Below, in pieces: positions 50,102 to 61,883 of a stretch of DNA of 64,000 bases; the stretch's first letter is position 1; each line of letters opens with the position of its first letter. This DNA is from Streptomyces sp. P3 (GTDB lineage: Bacteria; Actinomycetota; Actinomycetes; Streptomycetales; Streptomycetaceae). The stretch lies in assembly GCF_003032475.1 (NCBI RefSeq), contig NZ_CP028369.1:5890001-5954000 (forward strand), given 5' to 3'. The translations under genes and the position numbers were made by a program. The notes beneath the pieces were generated by a model, which was not told the origin of the DNA, ran no database searches, and saw only the letters and a program-made list of their open reading frames with translations.

Positions 50102-52192
50102 GTGAGGGAGAACACGACGCGGTCAGCCGTCCTGCCGGTGGCGCCGAGCCGGGGGCGGCTGCGACCGCTGGGTCTCGACGAGGTCAGGATCACCGGGGGC
50201 TTCTGGGCCCGGCGCCGACAGGTCAACGCGACCGCGACAATCGACCACTGCCGCGACTGGATGGAACGCGTCGGCTGGACCGGCAATTTCCGCGCCGCGG
50301 TGGAAGGCCGGATCCACCGGGACCGGCGTGGCCGCGAGTTCGCCGACTCCGACGTCTACAAGCTGATCGAGGCCATGGCCTGGGAGGCCGCCCACGGCTC
50401 CGGCGCCGCCCTCGACGCGCAGATCGCCGCACTCACCGACACCATCGCACCCGCCCAGGAACCGGACGGCTACCTCAACACCGCCTTCGGCCGCCCCGGT
50501 CAACAGCCCCGGTACAGCGACCTCGAGTGGGGCCACGAGCTGTACTGCTACGGGCATCTGATCCAGGCCGGCGTGGCCCAGACCCGGGCCCGCGGTGAGG
50601 GCGAGCTGGCGAAGATCGCCCGGCGCGCCGCCGACCACGTGTGCGCGGCCTTCGGCCCCGGCGGCATCGAACGCGTCTGCGGACACCCGGAGATCGAGAC
50701 GGCCCTGGTGGAACTGGCCCGGGCGACCGGCGAACAGCGCTACCTCGACCAGGCCGCGCTCTTCGTCGACCGTCGCGGCCGGCACACCCTCGCCGAGCCC
50801 GAGTTCGGCCGCGCCTACTACCAGGACGACGTGCCCGTCCGGGAGGCGACCGCGCTGCGCGGCCACGCCGTACGTGCCCTCTACCTCGCGGCCGGCGCCG
50901 TCGACGTGGCGGTGGAGACCGGGGACGACGCCCTGCTCGACTCGGTCGTCCGGCAGTGGGAGGCCGCGGTCGCCCGGCGCACCTACCTGACCGGCGGCAT
51001 GGGCTCCCACCACCGGGACGAGTCCTTCGGCGACGACTTCGTCCTGCCCCCTGACCGCGCCTACTCGGAGACCTGCGCGGCCGTCGCCTCCGTGATGCTC
51101 AACTGGCGGCTGCTGCTGGCCACCGGCGAACCGCGCTACGCCGACCTCGCCGAGCGGACCCTGTTCAACGTGGTGGCGACCTCGCCGTCACAGGACGGCA
51201 GGACCTTCTTCTACGCCAACACCCTGCACCGGCGCCGCCGCGGCACGACACCCGCCGCCGACGCGCAGAGCCCGCGCGCCGAATCGGGCCTGCGCGCCCC
51301 CTGGTTCGCGGTGTCGTGCTGTCCGACCAACGTGGCGCGGACCCTCGCCCTGCTGCCCGCCTATCTGGCGACGGCCGACGACGACGGGGTGCAACTGCAC
51401 CAGTACGCCGACGCCGAGCTCGCCACCTCCCTCTCCGAGGGCCGGGACGTCGCCCTGCACGTGCGCACCGACTACCCGTCCGACGGCAGCGTCACCGTAC
51501 GGATCGACCGCTCGCCGGAGCACCCCTGGACCCTGTCGCTGCGGGTGCCGGCATGGGCGACGGGCGACGCCGCCCGACTGGTCGACCCGGACGGGGTGCG
51601 CCGTGCCGTGACGCCGGGTACGGCCGCCGTCACCCGGCGCTTCCGGCCCGGCGACGAGATACGGCTGGAGCTGCCCGTGGCCCCGCGCTGGATCGCACCC
51701 GACCCCCGCATCGACGCGGTACGCGGCACCGCCGCCGTGCAGCGCGGGCCGCTCGTCTACTGCGCCGAGTCCGTCGACCTCCCGCCGGGCCACGAGGTGG
51801 ACGCCGTCCGGGTGAACCCCTCCGTCCCGCCGCAGGACGGGCCGGACGGCACCGTCGTGGCGGCCGGCGCACTGGTCGCGGCCCCGGACGCACCACCAGG
51901 GGCGCAGGGCGGAAGGTCCGGCGAGCCGGCCGATTCCGCCGCAGACACAGACACACGCGCAGCCGCCGACACGGACGCAGCAGCAGGCGTGGACGCGGAG
52001 GGCGACGGCCGGGCGGTACCGGACGCCGACACACGGTGGCCGTACGCGCCGCTCGACGAGGCCGCCGTGCCGGACGGTGAGCGTGCCGACATCGTCCTCG
52101 TGCCCTATCACTCCTGGGCGAACCGCGGCCCCTCGACGATGCGCGTGTGGCTGCCGACGACGCGACCGCCGACCGAACCCCCCGGCAGATAG
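50102..52192 (+). CDS. GH127 beta-L-arabinofuranosidase (HypBA1-like)
   Basis: A 696-residue enzyme without a signal peptide, so probably cytoplasmic. It belongs to DUF1680/GH127, whose founding member HypBA1 cleaves beta-1,2-linked L-arabinofuranosyl disaccharide from hydroxyproline-rich glycoprotein glycans. The zinc site is intact: S-E-T-C (Glu323, Cys325) and C-C-P-T-N (Cys406, Cys407), matching HypBA1 Glu338/Cys340/Cys417/Cys418. The middle region includes G-H-E-L-Y-C-Y-G-H-L. An Ala/Asp-rich insert (about 600-650) precedes the last strand. Start GTG 50102 has GAAGG 9 bases upstream; an ATG-AAC-TGG-TGA minigene (50094-50105) overlaps the start and could couple initiation. Confidence 0.92.
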   Translation: MRENTTRSAVLPVAPSRGRLRPLGLDEVRITGGFWARRRQVNATATIDHCRDWMERVGWTGNFRAAVEGRIHRDRRGREFADSDVYKLIEAMAWEAAHGSGAALDAQIAALTDTIAPAQEPDGYLNTAFGRPGQQPRYSDLEWGHELYCYGHLIQAGVAQTRARGEGELAKIARRAADHVCAAFGPGGIERVCGHPEIETALVELARATGEQRYLDQAALFVDRRGRHTLAEPEFGRAYYQDDVPVREATALRGHAVRALYLAAGAVDVAVETGDDALLDSVVRQWEAAVARRTYLTGGMGSHHRDESFGDDFVLPPDRAYSETCAAVASVMLNWRLLLATGEPRYADLAERTLFNVVATSPSQDGRTFFYANTLHRRRRGTTPAADAQSPRAESGLRAPWFAVSCCPTNVARTLALLPAYLATADDDGVQLHQYADAELATSLSEGRDVALHVRTDYPSDGSVTVRIDRSPEHPWTLSLRVPAWATGDAARLVDPDGVRRAVTPGTAAVTRRFRPGDEIRLELPVAPRWIAPDPRIDAVRGTAAVQRGPLVYCAESVDLPPGHEVDAVRVNPSVPPQDGPDGTVVAAGALVAAPDAPPGAQGGRSGEPADSAADTDTRAAADTDAAAGVDAEGDGRAVPDADTRWPYAPLDEAAVPDGERADIVLVPYHSWANRGPSTMRVWLPTTRPPTEPPGR

Positions 52193-52373
52193 CCGTGCAC
52201 CGGCCGGGCGCAGCCGTGCGCCGCGGGAAGCGCCGGGCCGGCGCATGGACCCGGGCGCACGGAACGGGCGCCCGCGCCGGCGTGCCGCGCCCGGCCTTCG
52301 GCGACATCCCTCCGACCGTGACATCCCCACTGTCCGACCCGACCACCCACGCCCCCACGATGGGAGTCCGACC

Positions 52374-54560
52374 ATGTCCCAACCCCCCTCTCGCCGCGGT
52401 CTGCTGAGACTGGCCGCCGGGACCGCGGCCGCAGTGCCGCTGCTGCACGCGACGCCCGCGGCGTCCCGTGCCGCCGCCGAGCCGGCCACGGCGACAGCGG
52501 CGTCCCGGGCGTCCGCCGTCCCTGCGGCTCCCGCTGCGGTCGCCGCGCCCGTCCCGCCGACCTGGGCGGTCCAGCCCTTCGCCCTGGACCGGGTGACGCT
52601 CGGCGACGGCGTCTTCCGTCGCAAGCGCGACCTGATGCTCGGCTACGCCAGGTCCTACCCCGCCGACCGGATCCTCGCCGTCTTCCGGGCCAACGCCGGG
52701 CTCGACACCCGCGGCGCCCGGCCGCCGGGCGGCTGGGAGACCTCCGACGGCAATCTGCGCGGCCACTACGGCGGCCACTTCCTCACGCTCGTCGCCCAGG
52801 CGTACGCCGACACCCGCGAGAGCGCGCTGAAGACCAAGCTCGATCACCTGGTGACCGCACTGGGCGAGTGCCAGACGGCGCTGGCCGACCACGGCTCGCC
52901 GAAGCCGAGTCACCCCGGCTATCTGGCGGCCTACCCGGAGACCCAGTTCATCCTGCTCGAGAGCTACACGACCTACCCCACCATCTGGGCCCCCTACTAC
53001 ACCTGCCACAAGATCATGCGCGGGCTGCTCGACGCGCACACCCTGGGCGGGAACGCGCAGGCGCTGACCATCGCCTCGAAGATGGGCGACTGGGTGCACA
53101 GCCGCCTCGGCCGGCTGCCGAAGGCGCAGTTGGAGCGCATGTGGTCGATCTACATAGCAGGCGAGTACGGCGGGATGAACGAGGTGATGGCGGACCTGTA
53201 CGCGCTCACCGGGCGGGCCGAGCACCTCGCAGCCGCCCGCTGCTTCGACAACACCGCGCTCCTGGACGCCTGCGCCGACGGCCGGGACGTCCTGGACGGC
53301 CGGCACGCCAACCAGCACATCCCCCAGTTCACCGGGTACGTACGGCTCTTCGACCACACCGGTGAGGAGGAGTACGCGGCCGCGGCCCGCAACTTCTGGG
53401 GCATGGTCGTGGGTCCGCGCACCTACAGCCAGGGAGGCGCCGGCAAGGGGGAGATCTTCCGGGCCCGGGGGGCGATCGCGGCCACCCTCGGCGACGACAA
53501 CGCCGAGACCTGCGCGACGTACAACATGCTCAAACTGAGCCGTCAGCTGTTCTTCCACGCGCCGGACGCCGCCTACATGGACTACTACGAGCGCGGCCTG
53601 ACCAACCACATCCTGGCCTCCCGCCGGGACGCGAGCAGCACGACCAGCCCGGAGGTCACCTACTTCGTCGGCATGGGCCCGGGGACGGTGCGCCAGTACG
53701 ACAACACCGGTACCTGCTGCGGCGGGACGGGCATGGAGAACCACACCAAGTACCAGGACTCGGTGTACTTCCGCTCGGCCGCCGGCGACGCGCTGTACGT
53801 CAACCTGTACCTCGCCTCGACCCTGCGGTGGCCGGAGCGGGGGCTCGTCCTGGAGCAGACGAGCGCCTACCCGGCGGAGGGCGTCCGCACGCTGACGTTC
53901 CGCGAGGGCGATGGCAGCCTCGACCTGAAGCTCAGGGTCCCGTCCTGGGCCACGGCCGGCTTCACCGTCGCCGTGAACGGGGTCCAGCAGCAGGCGTCGG
54001 CCTCCCCCGGCAGTTACCTCACCCTGCGCAGGAACTGGCGGCGCGGCGACCGGGTCACCGTCTCCGCGCCCTACCGCCTGCGCGTGGAGCGGGCGTCGGA
54101 CGACCCGTCCGTGCAGTCCCTCTTCCACGGGCCGGTGCTGCTGGTCGCGCGGAGCCAGGCGACGGATTTCCGGCAGTTCTCGTTCTACAAGGACTTCACC
54201 CTGCGCGGCGACCTGGCCGACGCGATCCGTCCCGAGGGCCGTCCGCAGTACTTCACCACACACGGTCTGACCCTGGCCCCGTTCCATGTGGCGGACGACG
54301 CCCGCTACCACGCCTACTTCCGGCGCGTGGAGCCGGTCGTCGTCTTCGGCAGGTCCGACTCGGGTGTGCCGAACCGCTCCCGCGGCGACGGCCTGACCTT
54401 CCTCGACGTCCTGTGGCAGCAGGCGCCTTTCGCGACCTCCGCCGCTTTTCTGGCCGCGGTACGCGCCCTGGCCGACGCCTGGCGGGCCGACGGGAGGTTC
54501 ACGGCCGCCGAACGGGACCGCGTCGTCGCCGCCGCCACCGCCGCGAACCTGCGCCGCTGA
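52374..54560 (+). CDS. Secreted DUF1680 beta-L-arabinofuranosidase (GH146-like)
   Basis: A 728-residue exported enzyme with a Tat-type signal (S-R-R-G-L-L-R-L-A-A-G-T-A-A; A-S-R-A region near residue 30). After an Ala/Pro-rich linker the DUF1680 fold begins at F-A-L-D-R-V-T-L-G-D-G. Zinc-cysteine motif A-E-T-C (Glu378, Cys380) and C-C-G-G-T-G-M-E-N-H (Cys448, Cys449), and G-H-Y-G-G-H-F-L-T-L are present; this C-C-G-G-T-G form and secretion suggest GH146 rather than GH127. It would act outside the cell on beta-L-arabinofuranosides, complementing the cytoplasmic GH127. ATG 52374 follows GGGAG; the frame open to 52077 overlaps GH127 in another register. Confidence 0.88.
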   Translation: MSQPPSRRGLLRLAAGTAAAVPLLHATPAASRAAAEPATATAASRASAVPAAPAAVAAPVPPTWAVQPFALDRVTLGDGVFRRKRDLMLGYARSYPADRILAVFRANAGLDTRGARPPGGWETSDGNLRGHYGGHFLTLVAQAYADTRESALKTKLDHLVTALGECQTALADHGSPKPSHPGYLAAYPETQFILLESYTTYPTIWAPYYTCHKIMRGLLDAHTLGGNAQALTIASKMGDWVHSRLGRLPKAQLERMWSIYIAGEYGGMNEVMADLYALTGRAEHLAAARCFDNTALLDACADGRDVLDGRHANQHIPQFTGYVRLFDHTGEEEYAAAARNFWGMVVGPRTYSQGGAGKGEIFRARGAIAATLGDDNAETCATYNMLKLSRQLFFHAPDAAYMDYYERGLTNHILASRRDASSTTSPEVTYFVGMGPGTVRQYDNTGTCCGGTGMENHTKYQDSVYFRSAAGDALYVNLYLASTLRWPERGLVLEQTSAYPAEGVRTLTFREGDGSLDLKLRVPSWATAGFTVAVNGVQQQASASPGSYLTLRRNWRRGDRVTVSAPYRLRVERASDDPSVQSLFHGPVLLVARSQATDFRQFSFYKDFTLRGDLADAIRPEGRPQYFTTHGLTLAPFHVADDARYHAYFRRVEPVVVFGRSDSGVPNRSRGDGLTFLDVLWQQAPFATSAAFLAAVRALADAWRADGRFTAAERDRVVAAATAANLRR

Positions 54561-56540: not shown

Positions 56541-58436
56541 CTACGTGTCGCCGTCCGCGTCACCCGGCGGCGGCCCGGGCTGCCGTATGAGGGGCAGGGC
56601 GTCCAGGTACTCGGGCGGGTGGTCGAAGGCCCGGGTCAGGGAGGCGAGATGGGGCTGGAGGCTGTGGGTGAGGGCATCGACGGCGGCCGGGAGCTCGTGC
56701 ACGTGGCGCGGGGTGATGTGGCCGTCGGCGAGGAGCAGGCCGGTGTGCGGGGTGAGGTGGGTGAGCAGGTAGAGGGCGGTGACCTCGGTGAGGAGGCGGC
56801 GGGCCGGTTCATGGGCCGTGCGGGCCGAGGTGGCCAGGAGGGCGTCCGCGGCCTGCAGCCTGATGTGGGCCTGAGCCTTCTGCAGCGCGGGAGCGGATGC
56901 CGTGTTCCAGCGGGCCTGCGGGTCGTGCGAGGGGCCCTGGCGCAGGGCTCGGTGTGCCTGCTCGTGGAAGGCGTGCTCGGTGCGGGCGAGCAGGTTGCGC
57001 AGGTGGTGGGGATTGGTGAGGACGGGCGGCCCGGCGTCCGGGACGGGCGGGGACGGCGGGTGGTGGAGCAGTTCCGCGGCCGCCTTGGTGGTGACGAGGA
57101 GGTTGTCGCCCTCCGCCGTGATGGTCCCCTCGATGTACTCGGAGAAGCCTGCGAGGTGGTTCGCGGGGAGAAGTCCCTGCGCGCCGCAGCGCTCCCGTGC
57201 CTCCAGCGCGATGGTGCGTGCCTCCCAGGTGATCCAGGCCTTGGCGAGCGCGACGAGGCGTTCGAGACCGGCACGGTCCGAGGCGTCGGGGCTGCTCCAC
57301 CGCGCGGTGAGCGAGCGGTGCAGGAACGTCATCGCGTAGGTGGTCGCGACGCCCTGGAGCAGTCGGCTGTGGTGGGTGCGGTGGGTGTTGATGGGCAGCC
57401 GCTGACCGGGCCGGGCTCCGCTGACGTGCCGGTGGTCGCCGTAGCGGACGGCGATGGCGAGCGCCGCGCGTGAGGCTCCGACGGCCGCGGCGCTCATGCA
57501 CAGCTTGCCGACGGTGACCCGGGAGATCGAGGTGAGGAAGCGTTTGCGGCGGTTGCCGAGGCTGCTGGTGAGGACGCCGTCGGGACCCAGTCGCCCGTGC
57601 TCGCCCTGAAGAAGGGCCCGGCGCGGCAGGGGCAGGTGGTCGAAGGAGGTGAGGCAGTGGTCGACGGGGGCGTTCGGACGCAGCGGGAGGGGTGTGACGG
57701 TGACGTGGGGAAGCGGTCCGTCGTGGTCGGTGAGCGGGGTCAGGAAGAGGAACACGCCGTGGTCCCGGTCGCCGACGAGCAGGCGGGCCGCCACGACGGC
57801 GCTCTTGGGGCCGCCCAGCGTGCTGGTGTTGGGCATGAACTTGGCGGCGCCGGGGTGGGGGGTGTGCAGGAGGAACCCGCCCGTCGCGGGGTCGAGACGG
57901 GCGGTGGTCTCCAGCGCGAAGGCGTCGTTGCCGTGGTCGACCTCGGTGCACAGGAACGTTCCGGTGCGTCGCAGCGCGGTGAACTCGGTCAGGTCCCTCG
58001 AGGGCTCGGCGTCGTGGTCGAGGAGGCTGCCGAGGAAGAGGTTGTAGTGGATGCTGGCGACGGTGGTGAGGCCGCCGCCGCCGTCCACGATGGCGGCCCA
58101 CTCGTGCAGCGCCGTGAGGAGGGCCGGGTCGGTCGCGAGCGACGCGGGGTCGGCCAGCAGGTCGTTGACCAGACGCAGCCAGGTGTAGGACTGCGCGGCC
58201 CGCTCCTCGGGAGTGAGACCCGGCCGGTGACGGAAGTCGTCCCGGGCTATGAGGCGGCGCCACGGGGCGTGGACGCGTTCCCGTTCGCCGTCCTGGTCGA
58301 AGAGCAGCCGGGTCAGCTCGCGGACGGTCGCCGCGTCGTCCCGCGCCTCGCCCTCGGCCGTGTCCGCGAAGGGGCGGGGACCGCTGCGGTCCGGTCCGGC
58401 GGGGCGCTCCGCGCCGTGGAATGCCAGAAGGGCCAT
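56541..58436 (-). CDS. aco: Acyl-CoA oxidase, Aco-like (butenolide biosynthesis)
   Basis: A 631-residue acyl-CoA dehydrogenase/oxidase-superfamily flavoenzyme: F-A-L-E-T-T-A and F-L-L-H-T-P-H-P-G-A-A-K-F-M-P-N match the acyl-CoA-oxidase substrate/FAD blocks, and E-A-R-E-R-C-G-A-Q-G-L the C-terminal region with the catalytic area. In S. avermitilis, Aco makes the unsaturated acyl precursor of avenolide and is encoded next to avaR1 and cyp17, the arrangement seen here. A primary-metabolic oxidase is the alternative. ATG 58436 has GGGGAG upstream; the frame to 58649 runs over the operator and is rejected. The promoter overlaps an autoregulatory-type site (58497-58525), so expression should be repressed by the receptor and released by its ligand. 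Confidence 0.87.
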   Translation of the reverse strand: MALLAFHGAERPAGPDRSGPRPFADTAEGEARDDAATVRELTRLLFDQDGERERVHAPWRRLIARDDFRHRPGLTPEERAAQSYTWLRLVNDLLADPASLATDPALLTALHEWAAIVDGGGGLTTVASIHYNLFLGSLLDHDAEPSRDLTEFTALRRTGTFLCTEVDHGNDAFALETTARLDPATGGFLLHTPHPGAAKFMPNTSTLGGPKSAVVAARLLVGDRDHGVFLFLTPLTDHDGPLPHVTVTPLPLRPNAPVDHCLTSFDHLPLPRRALLQGEHGRLGPDGVLTSSLGNRRKRFLTSISRVTVGKLCMSAAAVGASRAALAIAVRYGDHRHVSGARPGQRLPINTHRTHHSRLLQGVATTYAMTFLHRSLTARWSSPDASDRAGLERLVALAKAWITWEARTIALEARERCGAQGLLPANHLAGFSEYIEGTITAEGDNLLVTTKAAAELLHHPPSPPVPDAGPPVLTNPHHLRNLLARTEHAFHEQAHRALRQGPSHDPQARWNTASAPALQKAQAHIRLQAADALLATSARTAHEPARRLLTEVTALYLLTHLTPHTGLLLADGHITPRHVHELPAAVDALTHSLQPHLASLTRAFDHPPEYLDALPLIRQPGPPPGDADGDT

Positions 58437-58496
58437 GACCACTCCCCGTTGTCGCGGATTCGCACACCGGTACGTCTGGTTGCGCCGTCCGCCAAA

Positions 58497-58525
58497 AGAT
58501 ACGGACCTACCGGTTTTCTCATCAA
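58497..58525 (-). promoter_or_regulatory. aco promoter with autoregulatory (ARE-like) receptor site in the spacer
   Basis: Minus strand: TTGATG (58525-58520), 17-bp spacer, GTATCT (58502-58497). On the plus strand the same DNA reads AGATACGGACCTACCGGTTT, which fits the butyrolactone-receptor consensus A-n-A-T-A-C-n-n-A-C-C-n-n-n-C-G-G-T. A receptor bound here would cover both promoter boxes. Confidence 0.8.
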
Positions 58526-58713
58526 GTCGGAAACCGGCAATCCGGCCGGTCGTCGGTGGCGTGTTTTGAGGGGTTCCCGGGCCGCAGGAGCGCGCCTGGA
58601 GCGGATATGGCGAACTCACCGCCGAGGTCCGGGCGTTGCGGTGCCGCACGCCGCGGCCAACCTCCGATGGGCCGGTGGCCGCGGTGTCGGTGGACGTGAG
58701 CGGCGAGGTGGCA

Positions 58714-58737
58714 GGAGTCAGACCTGTCGGTATATTT
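58714..58737 (+). promoter_or_regulatory. ARE-like site over the receptor gene's -10 box
   Basis: GGAGTCAGACCTGTCGGTAT followed by ATTT keeps the A-C-C-n-n-n-C-G-G-T core but has a weaker left half. It overlaps a TATATT -10 (58731-58736), 40 bp before the receptor start, fitting autorepression. Confidence 0.55.
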
Positions 58738-58775
58738 TCGAGCCGGATTCGCCGGAGCTACCTCGGAGGTGGGGC

Positions 58776-59459
58776 GTGGCGCTGCAGGAACGGGCCGTCC
58801 GGACGAGGCGGGCCGTCCTCGTCGCGGCCGCGGCGGTGTTCGCCGAGGTGGGGTACGAGGCCGCGACGATCGCGGAGATCCTCGCCCGGGCCGGCGTGAC
58901 CAAGGGGGCGCTCTACTTCCACTTCTCCTCCAAGGAAGAGCTGGCGCAGGCCGTGCTGGCCGGCCAGCTGGAGACCGTCCCGGCCGTGCCCGCAAGGGAG
59001 TTGCTGCTGCAGCAGGGGCTGGACGAGGCCTTCGTCCTGGCCCATCTGCTGTCGGTGGGCGATCCGTTGGTCCAGGGAAGCATCAGACTGACCGTGGACC
59101 AGGGGGCGCCGACGGACGGGCTGGACCGGCGCGCGCCGATGAGCGGGTGGATCGCGCACAACGCGGACCTGCTGGGGCGGGCGAAGGAGCGCGGCGAGCT
59201 GCTGCCGCATGTCGATGTGGCCGCCGCCGCGCGGATGTTCGTGGGCGCGTTCACCGGGGTCCAGGTGCTGTCCAAGATCATGACGGGGCACGCGGACCTG
59301 CCGGAGCGGGTGGCGGACCTTCAGCGGCATCTGCTGGCCGGGGTCGCGGTGCCCGCCGTGCTGTTGCAGCTGGACACCGCCGCCGACCGGGGCGCCAGGG
59401 TGTACGAGGAGGCCGTGAAGGCCAGTTGGCCGACGGGACAGCCGCGGGCCGCCGGATGA
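58776..59459 (+). CDS. avaR1: Gamma-butyrolactone/butenolide receptor (ArpA/AvaR1-like, TetR superfamily)
   Basis: A 227-residue regulator. The N-terminus R-A-V-R-T-R-R-A-V-L-V-A-A-A-A-V-F and helix-turn-helix T-I-A-E-I-L-A-R-A-G-V-T-K-G-A-L-Y-F-H-F (about 31-50) are those of ArpA/ScbR/AvaR proteins. The ligand-pocket tryptophan is kept in M-S-G-W-I-A-H-N-A-D-L-L (Trp125). Ligand binding releases it from DNA. GTG 58776 has GGAGGTGGGG just upstream; the frame extends back through antisense of aco and is not coding there. Placement between divergent aco and downstream P450 is as in the avenolide locus; the actual ligand is unknown. Confidence 0.92.
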   Translation: MALQERAVRTRRAVLVAAAAVFAEVGYEAATIAEILARAGVTKGALYFHFSSKEELAQAVLAGQLETVPAVPARELLLQQGLDEAFVLAHLLSVGDPLVQGSIRLTVDQGAPTDGLDRRAPMSGWIAHNADLLGRAKERGELLPHVDVAAAARMFVGAFTGVQVLSKIMTGHADLPERVADLQRHLLAGVAVPAVLLQLDTAADRGARVYEEAVKASWPTGQPRAAG

Positions 59460-59590
59460 CCGCCGCGGCCTCGTCCGCAGGGGGCTGTGCGACGGCGCAC
59501 GCGGGTCGCCGAGCGACCGGCGGCCCCGGCCCGTCCGGCGGCGTGTGGGACCGGCGACCGGGCACGGGTGGTTTCCGGCGGTCGGCGTGA

Positions 59591-59688
59591 GGCGGCAGGT
59601 GCCTGCGAGTCGGCGGGCACGTGCGGGTCGGCAGGGGTGTCCGGGTCGTGAGGCGCGTGCGGGTCGTCGGGCGCGTGTGGGTCGGTGG
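59591..59688. repeat. 18-bp imperfect tandem repeat between receptor and P450 genes
   Basis: About 5.5 copies of GTCGNNNGGCGCGTGCGG at 59591, 59609, 59627, 59645, 59663 and 59681 (partial). The surrounding 59460-59835 gap (376 bp) holds no convincing gene; minus-strand reading gives a D-P-H-A-P-D-like periodic peptide, which I take as a by-product. Confidence 0.75.
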
Positions 59689-59835
59689 TTGAGGGTGGGG
59701 CGACAGGGGGAGGGGTCGGGCACCAACGGTTGTCCGGGGGCGTGGTTCCGCGTCCTCGGCTGAGAGGCGGGCGACCCCCTGCCTCCCGACCGGTGCGCAT
59801 GCCGACCCTGCTGGACCGACCCCGGGAGTTCGACG

Positions 59836-61071
59836 ATGGATACGACAGCCTGCCCCTACGCCCTGGACGTGACGGGGCGCGATCTCGCGGGCGAGGCAGC
59901 CATGCTCAGGGCCCAAGGCCCCGCCGTGCGGGTGGAGTTGCCGGGGGGAGTGGTCGCGTGGGCGGTGCTGCGTCAGCGCGAGGTGGAGCGGCTGCTGACC
60001 GATCCCCGGGTGTCGAAGGACGCGCGCCGGCACTGGCCGGAGCTGATCGAGGGGCGCATCAGTGAGGAGTGGCCGCTGTACCCCTGGGTGATCAACGAGA
60101 ACATGCTGTTCGCCTACGGCGACTCGCACACCCGGCTGCGCAGGCTGGTGGCGGGAGCGTTCACCGCGCGGCGTTCGGAGGCGATGCGGACACGAGTGGC
60201 ACAGATCGCGGCAGAGCTCGTCGACGGGCTCGCGGCGAGCCGGCCCAGGGAGCCGGTGGACCTGCGGGCCGCGTTCGCGGAACTGCTGCCGATGCGGGTG
60301 ATCTGCGAACTGTTCGGGGTGCCACAGGGCGAGGCCACCGACGCCCTGTGCGCGGCCCTGCACACGGTGTTCGGCACGACGATCAGCGGCCGGGAGATCG
60401 AGGCGGCCCGGCTGGAGGCCTTCGTCCGGCTGTCGGACCTGGTGAAGGCCAAGCGGGCCGAGCCGGGCGACGACCTCACGTCGCTGCTGATCCAGGCACG
60501 TGACCAGGAGGACCGGCTCACCGAGGAGGAACTCCTGGGCACCCTGTTCCTCATGATCGCCGGAGGGCAGGACACCACGGCCGCCCTGATCACCAACGCG
60601 GTCGGCGCGCTGCTGCGGTCGCCCGAGCAGCTGGAACACGTCAGGGCCGGCCGGGCGACCTGGCAGGACGTCGCTGCCGAGACGATGCGGGTGCACACCC
60701 CCGGGGCCTACTCGCCCATGAGGTTCGCCGTCGAGGACATCGATCTGGACGGCGTGCTGATCCGCAGGGGCGAGGCCATCCTCGTCAACTTCGCGGCGGG
60801 GGGCCGGGATCCGGAACGCTACGGGCCGCACGCCGAGCGGTTCGACGTGCTGCGCAAGGACCGTGACGGCCTCGGCTTCGGCCACGGGCCGCACCGCTGC
60901 CTGGGGGCGCCGTTGGCCGGAGTGGAGGCGGAGAGCGCCTTCGCCGCGCTCTTCGAGCGCTTCCCCCGCATGGAACTCGCCTGTGCGCCGGAGGAACTCC
61001 TGCCGTTGCCCAGTTTCCTGATGAACAGTTACCGGTCGCTTCCCGTCCGGCTCGTTCCCGTCCAGGCCTGA
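59836..61071 (+). CDS. cyp17: Cytochrome P450, Cyp17-like
   Basis: A 411-residue soluble bacterial P450 (class I, needing ferredoxin and reductase from elsewhere). Haem loop [10 protein letters not shown] with ligand Cys355; I-helix oxygen-activating A-G-G-Q-D-T-T (from residue 242); K-helix E-x-x-R as A-A-E-T-M-R. Gln replaces the usual Glu/His before D-T-T. In S. avermitilis, Cyp17 performs the hydroxylation step of avenolide synthesis and is encoded beside avaR1. ATG 59836 follows GGGAG at 8 bases. Identity as Cyp17 rests on context; the P450 call is firm. Confidence 0.9.
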
Positions 61072-61125
61072 ACCGGACATCGTGCCTGCGCCGTCGAAGA
61101 CCGAGGGCCGGGGAGCACGGACCGA

Positions 61126-61149
61126 AGATACCGCACACGCGGTTTACTT
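61126..61149 (+). promoter_or_regulatory. ARE-like operator before the second receptor gene
   Basis: AGATACCGCACACGCGGTTT and the next four bases fit the receptor consensus at most fixed positions and lie in a longer inverted repeat, CCGAAGATACCGC / GCGGTTTACTTCGG (61122-61152) with an ACAC centre. It is about 90 bp upstream of the TetR start. Confidence 0.75.
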
Positions 61150-61238
61150 CGGCACGGTCGCGATGGGATGCTCTCCCCGTTCCGCCGGACGCGGGACGCG
61201 GCTCTCCGCCGTCCGCGCAGGCTGGGGAGGAAGACCTG

Positions 61239-61883
61239 ATGGTCAAGCAGGCACGGGCGGTCCGCACCCGCCGGGCCCTTGTCCGGGCGGCGGCCGAGGT
61301 GTTCGCCGCCGAGGGGTACGCCGGGGCGTCCCTTCCGGCCATCAGCGAACGGGCGGGGGTGAGCAACGGCGCCCTGCACTTCCACTTCGCCAGCAAGCAC
61401 GACCTGGCGGCGGAGGTGGAGAGGGCGGCGGCGGACGGCGCGCAGCGCCTCGCCGAACGATGCCGCAGCCGGGCCGACACGCTGCTGCAGTCCCTCGTGC
61501 ACACGGCCTGCGCACTGCTGCTCGCGGTGGTCGCCGACCCCGTGATCCGGGCGGGGTTCCGGCTCAGCGGTGATCCCTCGCGCAAGGACGGTACGCGGCT
61601 GCTGCGCTGGTGGCAGGCGTGGGTGCAGGAGCTCGTCGTACAGGCGCAGCGCGACGGGGAGCTCGCGCGGGACGTCCCCGCCGACGTCGCGACGACCGTG
61701 ATCGTTGCCGCGACCGCGGGCTTCGAGGTGATGGGGGCGGCGGACCGCGAGGTGCTCTCGGTGGAACGCGTGACGCAGCTGTGGACCTTCGTCCTGCCCC
61801 GGCTGGCGGCCCCACCCGGGCACGCCTCGACGTCCAAGGGACCGCAGACACCGGTGGAACAGCAGGGCGACCAGGTGTATTGA
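61239..61883 (+). CDS. Second butyrolactone-receptor-like TetR regulator (AvaR2/ScbR2-like)
   Basis: A 214-residue protein homologous to the receptor at 58776-59459: Q-A-R-A-V-R-T-R-R-A-L-V-R-A-A-A-E-V-F and helix-turn-helix I-S-E-R-A-G-V-S-N-G-A-L-H-F-H-F-A-S-K. The ligand domain is more divergent (L-L-R-W-W-Q-A-W-V), as in pseudo-receptors such as ScbR2 that bind antibiotics or no lactone. ATG 61239 follows GGGGAGGAAG. The palindrome at 61122-61152 is its probable operator. In the avenolide cluster avaR2 and avaR3 occupy similar places; which one this matches is unclear. Confidence 0.9.
   Translation: MVKQARAVRTRRALVRAAAEVFAAEGYAGASLPAISERAGVSNGALHFHFASKHDLAAEVERAAADGAQRLAERCRSRADTLLQSLVHTACALLLAVVADPVIRAGFRLSGDPSRKDGTRLLRWWQAWVQELVVQAQRDGELARDVPADVATTVIVAATAGFEVMGAADREVLSVERVTQLWTFVLPRLAAPPGHASTSKGPQTPVEQQGDQVY

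Follow-up and report, generated by a model that had tools for sequence, protein, structure and literature searches.

A probable self-regulating hormone cassette of the avenolide type in Streptomyces sp. P3

A 64,000-nucleotide stretch of the Streptomyces sp. P3 chromosome (hereafter the window; positions 5890001-5954000 of a 9.85-Mb single-contig genome) carries, at window positions 56541-61883, four genes that very probably form a self-regulating, Aco/Cyp17-dependent hormone cassette of the avenolide butenolide type. They encode an Aco-type acyl-CoA oxidase predicted to be the hormone synthase (aco), an AvaR1-type hormone receptor and repressor (R1), a Cyp17-type cytochrome P450 and a second, pseudo-receptor-like regulator of the ScbR family (R2). 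The genes, their orthology and conserved order, the operators at aco and R2, the intact lactone pocket of R1 and the intact motifs of both enzymes are direct observations. An earlier, sequence-only reading had proposed an avenolide-type butenolide locus here. Trees, gene order, operators and the R1 pocket support that proposal, with exceptions in the R2 motif, in an extra avaR3 gene of S. avermitilis, in the predicted status of the hormone and in a pocket that is not specific to avenolide.

Reading frames, profiles and refined starts confirm the order and strands first claimed for the four genes. The aco gene (56541..58436, minus strand) encodes 631 residues from ATG 58436. This start was preferred to the frame's first GTG (58649), since its MALLAFH beginning is shared by L005-L007, the three nearest alignment rows that reach so far; the product was assigned by alignment, tree and the Pfam profiles PF22924 and PF01756. 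R1 (58776..59459, plus strand, 227 residues), assigned by profile, comparison with AvaR1 and pocket residues, starts at GTG 58776 behind a GGAGG. The P450 gene (59836..61071, plus strand, 411 residues from ATG 59836) was identified by tree and by its match to PF00067, and R2 (61239..61883, plus strand, 214 residues from ATG 61239) by profile and pocket residues. Against a curated cut-off of 150 bits in the NCBIfam model NF041196 (ScbR_bind_reg), R1 and R2 score 204.9 and 179.6 bits. By eye, the 376 bp separating R1 from the P450 gene show, at about 59560-59710, short and imperfect repeats that resemble GTGCGGGTCG and are rich in G on the plus strand.

The oxidase contains a TAEGDN motif whose glutamate, Glu444 (predicted catalytic codon at 57111..57113, minus strand, located by alignment), is invariant in a 20-row alignment. 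It aligns with the EGDN glutamate of the acyl-CoA oxidase 1w07, which we take to be catalytic. The P450 carries GGQDTT in the I-helix, ETMR as its ExxR element and a heme-loop motif, and presumably uses them in the roles we assign to such motifs. The ratio of non-synonymous to synonymous change (dN/dS) against relatives of the same clade is well below 1 for every gene, a sign of purifying selection throughout. The oxidase has 0.26-0.30, the P450 0.17-0.20 and R1 0.09-0.15; R2 has 0.23, from the one R2 orthologue in the clade, comparisons with L004-L007, L034 and L035 having been set aside because they matched the other receptor. These ratios, together with the recurrence of the same set across relatives described below, indicate that the gene set is more than a chance assembly.

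R1 is 66% identical to AvaR1, whose structure 6wp7 is its top match in PDB, an alignment that bears out the kinship first claimed for the receptor. S. avermitilis itself was not identified among 392 genomes of the genus, where the best AvaR1 match reached 88%; proteins labelled S. avermitilis were retrieved with the cassette of strain TP-A0356 (L073), probably the source of that closest receptor, as query, and the best 120 matches listed included at least two such P450s and at least one such oxidase. Over 611 aligned positions the window oxidase shares 54% identity with the labelled oxidase, and the window P450 is 62-63% identical to the two labelled P450s. As a scale, homologues in the literature share 63 and 70% identity with Cyp17 and 53 and 63% with Aco. 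In reverse searches the S. avermitilis P450 placed the window P450 first among 24 genome matches at E<=1e-20 (62%, the next 48%), and the S. avermitilis oxidase matched only the window gene, in two pieces.

Phylogeny points the same way. A quick 90-row tree, in which seven long rows were flagged, placed the window oxidase in a starred set of 12 (seven from full cassettes, two with a receptor, three unlabelled) inside a wider group of 70 rows with support 91, not starred; the wider group comprises all 55 full cassettes, seven loci with a receptor, three of the 18 oxidase-only loci and five unlabelled rows. Five outgroup acyl-CoA oxidases from Streptomyces fell apart from the window enzyme. In a 61-row tree the window P450 lies among cassette P450s and the two labelled S. 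avermitilis, away from the three next-best P450s of its own genome. Grouping with primary metabolism, the outcome that the sequence-only reading had set against itself, was not what we found as far as this could be run, both enzymes keeping company with those of cassettes.

The gene order is widely conserved. A scan of named genome contigs gave 232 stretches encoding relatives, and the best 80 were kept and examined. A full cassette, defined as an oxidase, a divergent receptor above 200 bits and a P450 above 350 bits on the receptor's strand, is present in 55 of these 80 loci. Seven loci have the oxidase and receptor only, and 18 the oxidase only; in all, 62 loci pair the oxidase with a linked AvaR1-like receptor. 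Among the seven, L033, L036 and L072 lie on contigs that end within 1.4 kb, L061 has its P450 on the other strand and L086 a P450 fragment; two oxidase-only loci, L091 and L112, have short flanks, and L006 and L037 are the same contig. A set of Aco relatives (L087, L093, L094, L096, L100-L106, L108, L110 and L111) has no adjacent receptor or P450 of the cassette kind, and ten of them form one branch of the oxidase tree; L080 and L090 sit elsewhere in it, with a different P450 beside the oxidase.

At E<=1e-60 an oxidase match occurs in 122 of the 392 genus genomes, our strain included, and in 35 plasmid records of PLSDB, all from Streptomyces; the oxidase gene, at least, therefore also travels on plasmids. 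Published surveys quote avenolide activity for 24% of actinomycetes (PMC12301235) and report such genes in 74 of 415 streptomycete genomes at >=50% identity, linkage not being required (PMC5575351).

Operators tie the genes to one another. The consensus for AvaR1 and AvaR2 sites is AWWCCRBBHDDNMSGTWT (PMC5744401), and two exact matches lie at the locus: a candidate autoregulatory element, AAACCGGTAGGTCCGTAT, at 58499..58516 (minus strand), some 62 bp before the start codon of aco, and AAACCGCGTGTGCGGTAT at 61128..61145 (minus strand), some 93 bp before that of R2. The whole 9.85 Mb holds four exact matches and none to a reversed control pattern. The chance that two of the four fall within 5343 bp would be about 2e-6 if sites were evenly spread, and the true value is somewhat larger because promoters are less G+C-rich than genes. 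Among relatives, 61 of the 62 receptor-linked loci have at least one site (one mismatch or fewer) in the gap between aco and receptor, L044 being the exception. These gaps, 33.6 kb in all, have 119 sites; the other 1.10 Mb has 53, not counting those between the P450 gene and R2. Comparison by eye with the relatives' sites also gave a weak, possible half operator before R1 (AGACCTGTCGG..., 58720..58745, plus strand); a half-length operator has been described for one avaR1 site (PMC5744401). At two mismatches the consensus becomes unspecific in the window, with 8 matches against 4.89 expected and 13 of 100 shuffles reaching 8.

The binding pocket of R1 argues for a lactone ligand. The AvaR1-avenolide structure assigns Gln64, Thr108, Trp127, Val158, Phe161, Thr162 and Gln165 to contact with the lactone or chain, or to coupling (PMC7347384), and alignment to AvaR1 shows all seven kept in R1. 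Gln64, Thr108, Trp127 and Gln165 are invariant across 63 receptors (the window's and those of the 62 linked loci). Position 131, where the Thr of AvaR1 bonds the C10 hydroxyl of avenolide (PMC7347384), is variable: 37 receptors, R1 among them (codon at 59160-59162), have Asn, 16 have Thr, 6 Ser and 2 Gly, while Asp and Val occur once each. With the lactone residues kept and Asn in place of the Thr expected of a receptor for avenolide itself, binding of a lactone by R1 is well supported as a prediction, and the tail of the ligand may differ from that of avenolide.

R2 presents a different pocket. Trp127 is kept, but Trp130, Val131 and Thr161 are among the differences, and Ala64, Ser108, Ala162 and Glu165 stand where a genuine receptor has Gln64, Thr108, Thr162 and Gln165. 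Intact motifs had been claimed for all four families; the claim stands for the oxidase, the P450 and the lactone pocket of R1, and fails for the ligand residues of R2. A second receptor-like gene is present in 46 of the 62 linked loci, in 37 of them directly downstream of the P450 (same strand, <900 bp); all 46 of these related second receptors have Ala at position 64, and mostly Trp130 and Val131 as well. Given these altered lactone residues and the uniform Ala64, R2 is best read as a putative linked pseudo-receptor. AvaR2, itself homologous to pseudo-receptors, reportedly responds both to avenolide and to antibiotics (PMC5744401), so the lost residues are no proof that R2 ignores the hormone. 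AvaR3 is described with an extra stretch of 75 residues (PMC5744401); R2, at 214 residues, has no room for it, and from this we infer that R2 is AvaR2-like, set apart from AvaR3 by description. The fast receptor tree, which carried long-branch warnings, serves only to separate R1 from R2.

Based on these features, a working scheme can be proposed. Aco and the P450 would convert a branched fatty acyl-CoA into a 4-substituted butenolide, while R1 would repress aco and, through the operator before it, R2. Binding of the hormone would release R1 from its operators, whereupon hormone synthesis would rise and a downstream cascade begin. R2 would then accumulate and, as a second repressor with an altered pocket and shared operators, might damp or end the response.

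Several points weigh against this scheme. The consensus scan of the window matched no full operator before R1 beyond the aco site, and at most a half site. The records of the S. avermitilis-labelled proteins do not carry the names aco or cyp17, and the proteins are equated with Aco and Cyp17 on the strength of species label and family. By eye, neither an antibiotic cluster nor an activator gene could be recognised beside the cassette, profile searches having covered the four cassette genes. Published relatives differ from one species to the next (S. cyaneogriseus, S. pristinaespiralis, S. albus) in the sign of regulation and in its targets: ScyR1 of S. cyaneogriseus did not repress scyA1, and inactivation of snbU in S. 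pristinaespiralis raised pristinamycin. Finally, the production and structure of the hormone, the chemistry, DNA binding, derepression and targets are predictions from sequence.

The strain also has a second candidate hormone system. The sequence-only reading was right that the window holds no AfsA-type synthase, but it missed an AfsA-type locus elsewhere in the genome, at about 9101.9-9106.3 kb and 3.15 Mb from the cassette. This locus comprises AfsA (L140:3896-4942, minus strand), a divergent receptor (L140:5105-5791, plus strand; 226.9 bits in NF041196), a phosphatase-like gene (L140:6012-6710, plus strand) and a reductase-like gene (L140:6718-7578, plus strand), both recognised by eye, and a second receptor-like gene (L140:7720-8340, plus strand). 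Its receptor is at most 42% identical to any other in the tree set, and the whole genome has five receptors over the ScbR-family cut-off.

What the cassette makes is the question on which alternatives press hardest. Since R1 has Asn at the position of AvaR1 Thr131, the product may not be avenolide itself, and it is quite possible, although we hold the idea tentatively, that a cassette of this same kind makes a butenolide whose tail is oxidised or branched in another way, a dialect for which the receptor is of the Asn type. At this position Asn outnumbers every other residue, with Thr well behind, and S. albus, with Aco and P450 homologues, is reported to make butenolide 4 with no avenolide detected. 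The oxidase of the P3 clade is also unusually diverged: its mean identity to four sister loci is 60%, compared with 75% for both R1 and the P450, while the same sister loci are about equal across the three genes against eight other loci (68, 68 and 71%). Its stem branch is long (0.67 in the quick tree), while the rate of divergence is ordinary in its partners, the receptor and the P450. Against this, Asn can also bond the C10 hydroxyl, and the oxidase divergence may be neutral. Fixed changes at columns conserved elsewhere number 8 of 230 in six clade rows; five control groups of 3-6 rows gave 0/231, 1/237, 2/237, 7/234 and 9/240, so the clade lies above three and resembles two. In three clade rows Thr, His, Pro and Arg together make up 30-32% of the oxidase; five other rows have 24-26%. 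A changed function of the clade oxidase, which we considered, is weakened by these two results, though the excess divergence is real; we read it as mainly compositional drift, a new function not being proven. Overall, the Asn appears to lower the case for avenolide itself and not that for an avenolide-like hormone. A bolder extension, which we regard as speculative and rather doubtful, would make avenolide a minority dialect: most Aco/P450 cassettes, that of P3 included, would make butenolides with a differently oxidised tail, sensed through Asn131 receptors, and the linked R2 family, with its Ala64 and mostly Trp130 and Val131, would not recognise the butenolide as AvaR1 does but would respond to a second signal, giving a two-input switch.

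The remaining alternatives would take the hormone away from the local enzymes, or the function from the genes. R1 might mainly answer the gamma-butyrolactone of the AfsA locus, or the two systems might cross-talk, with the local enzymes contributing little; such a locus with a receptor does exist at 9.10 Mb, and receptors of both hormone classes share the lactone residues (PMC7347384). We consider this unlikely, as that locus has its own, distant receptor and most of the loci examined have an AvaR1-like receptor linked to their oxidase. That the cassette is silent or decaying, as the elevated divergence of Aco and the want of a matched full operator for R1 itself could suggest, is very unlikely given the open frames, the intact catalytic motifs and the dN/dS values listed above for Aco, the P450 and R1. 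Both enzyme families are broad, and the oxidase and P450 could in principle serve ordinary lipid metabolism or another secondary metabolite; the trees, the conserved linkage and the operators make this highly improbable. An avenolide-type cassette that controls its own synthesis is the reading we retain.

The same operator patterns were followed through the rest of the genome. No adjacent activator gene was recognised by eye at the two exact matches outside the locus (genome 2889549 and 4806220), and a clear regulon was accordingly rejected. With one mismatch allowed, the genome gave 52 matches against 17 for the reversed control pattern. One of these (genome 911723-911740; L150:9724-9741) lies about 115 bp in front of the gene for a predicted SARP activator (at 911.9 kb), the only such link noticed among 11 BTAD matches, with about 0.03 expected by rough arithmetic; it also overlaps the start of the coding sequence of a divergent gene. 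This makes the SARP gene a lead, and only that, as a target. An ABC transporter gene and a thioredoxin-like gene were noted by eye near the site. A palindromic operator pattern returned 38 rows and its reversed control 17. The pattern's best site outside the locus and receptor promoters, at 6701156, was discounted as it falls inside an open frame. Two palindromic operator-like sites (genome 9775465-9775482, exact, and 9775683-9775700, one mismatch) lie just upstream of another ScbR-family receptor (9774765-9775331, minus strand), suggesting that this receptor may regulate itself. Nearer to the cassette, at window positions 50102-54560, are two consecutive large frames that resemble GH127-type glycosidases.

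Many Streptomyces probably rely on such genes to produce and detect an avenolide-like hormone, by which antibiotic production is turned on. The P3 locus is a clean chromosomal example, operators included, and its genome is complete; as the genome also has an AfsA-type locus, a single strain could test how work is divided between two hormone systems. The Asn/Thr split at position 131 of R1, together with the uniform change at position 64 of R2, yields concrete predictions about hormone dialects, which would be useful when choosing chemical inducers of silent antibiotic clusters.

The locus is of a kind already known, and strains of its near relatives appear in a published table. The nearest named full cassettes among the best 80, those of S. 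rishiriensis, Streptomyces sp. LUP30 and Streptomyces sp. yr375 (L034, L035, L037), share mean identities with the P3 genes of 78.2% for Aco, 90.5% for R1 and 86.5% for the P450, and all three strains are among the 90 genomes tabulated in an eLife study of 2020 (PMC7347384); only L037 of these shows R2 adjoining the P450. Some novelty may lie in the Asn131 class and the R2 pocket, a published statement of neither having been found in a partial search of the literature. Other Aco/receptor/P450 sets in which at least one gene has been genetically tested are ScyA1/ScyR1 of S. cyaneogriseus, SnbU/SpbR of S. pristinaespiralis and Orf16/Orf18/TylP of S. fradiae; these lie in, or have been shown to act on, a known antibiotic cluster, whereas none was recognised by eye beside the P3 locus. 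With AfsA-type gamma-butyrolactone and SRB-butenolide systems the P3 cassette has the receptor family in common, but its synthase is an acyl-CoA oxidase and not AfsA. The content and orientation of the S. avermitilis avenolide locus, said by the sequence-only reading to be reproduced in P3, are matched by a similar but not identical set. S. avermitilis has two regulators downstream of cyp17, with avaR3 between cyp17 and avaR2 by the locus numbers sav_3706 to sav_3702 (PMC5744401), and P3 has one; AvaR1 has Thr131 and R1 Asn, and the P3 hormone is a predicted one. Common to both are aco beside avaR1, cyp17 adjoining avaR1, one or more receptor-like genes beyond it, operators of the AvaR1 type and a lactone pocket in the receptor.

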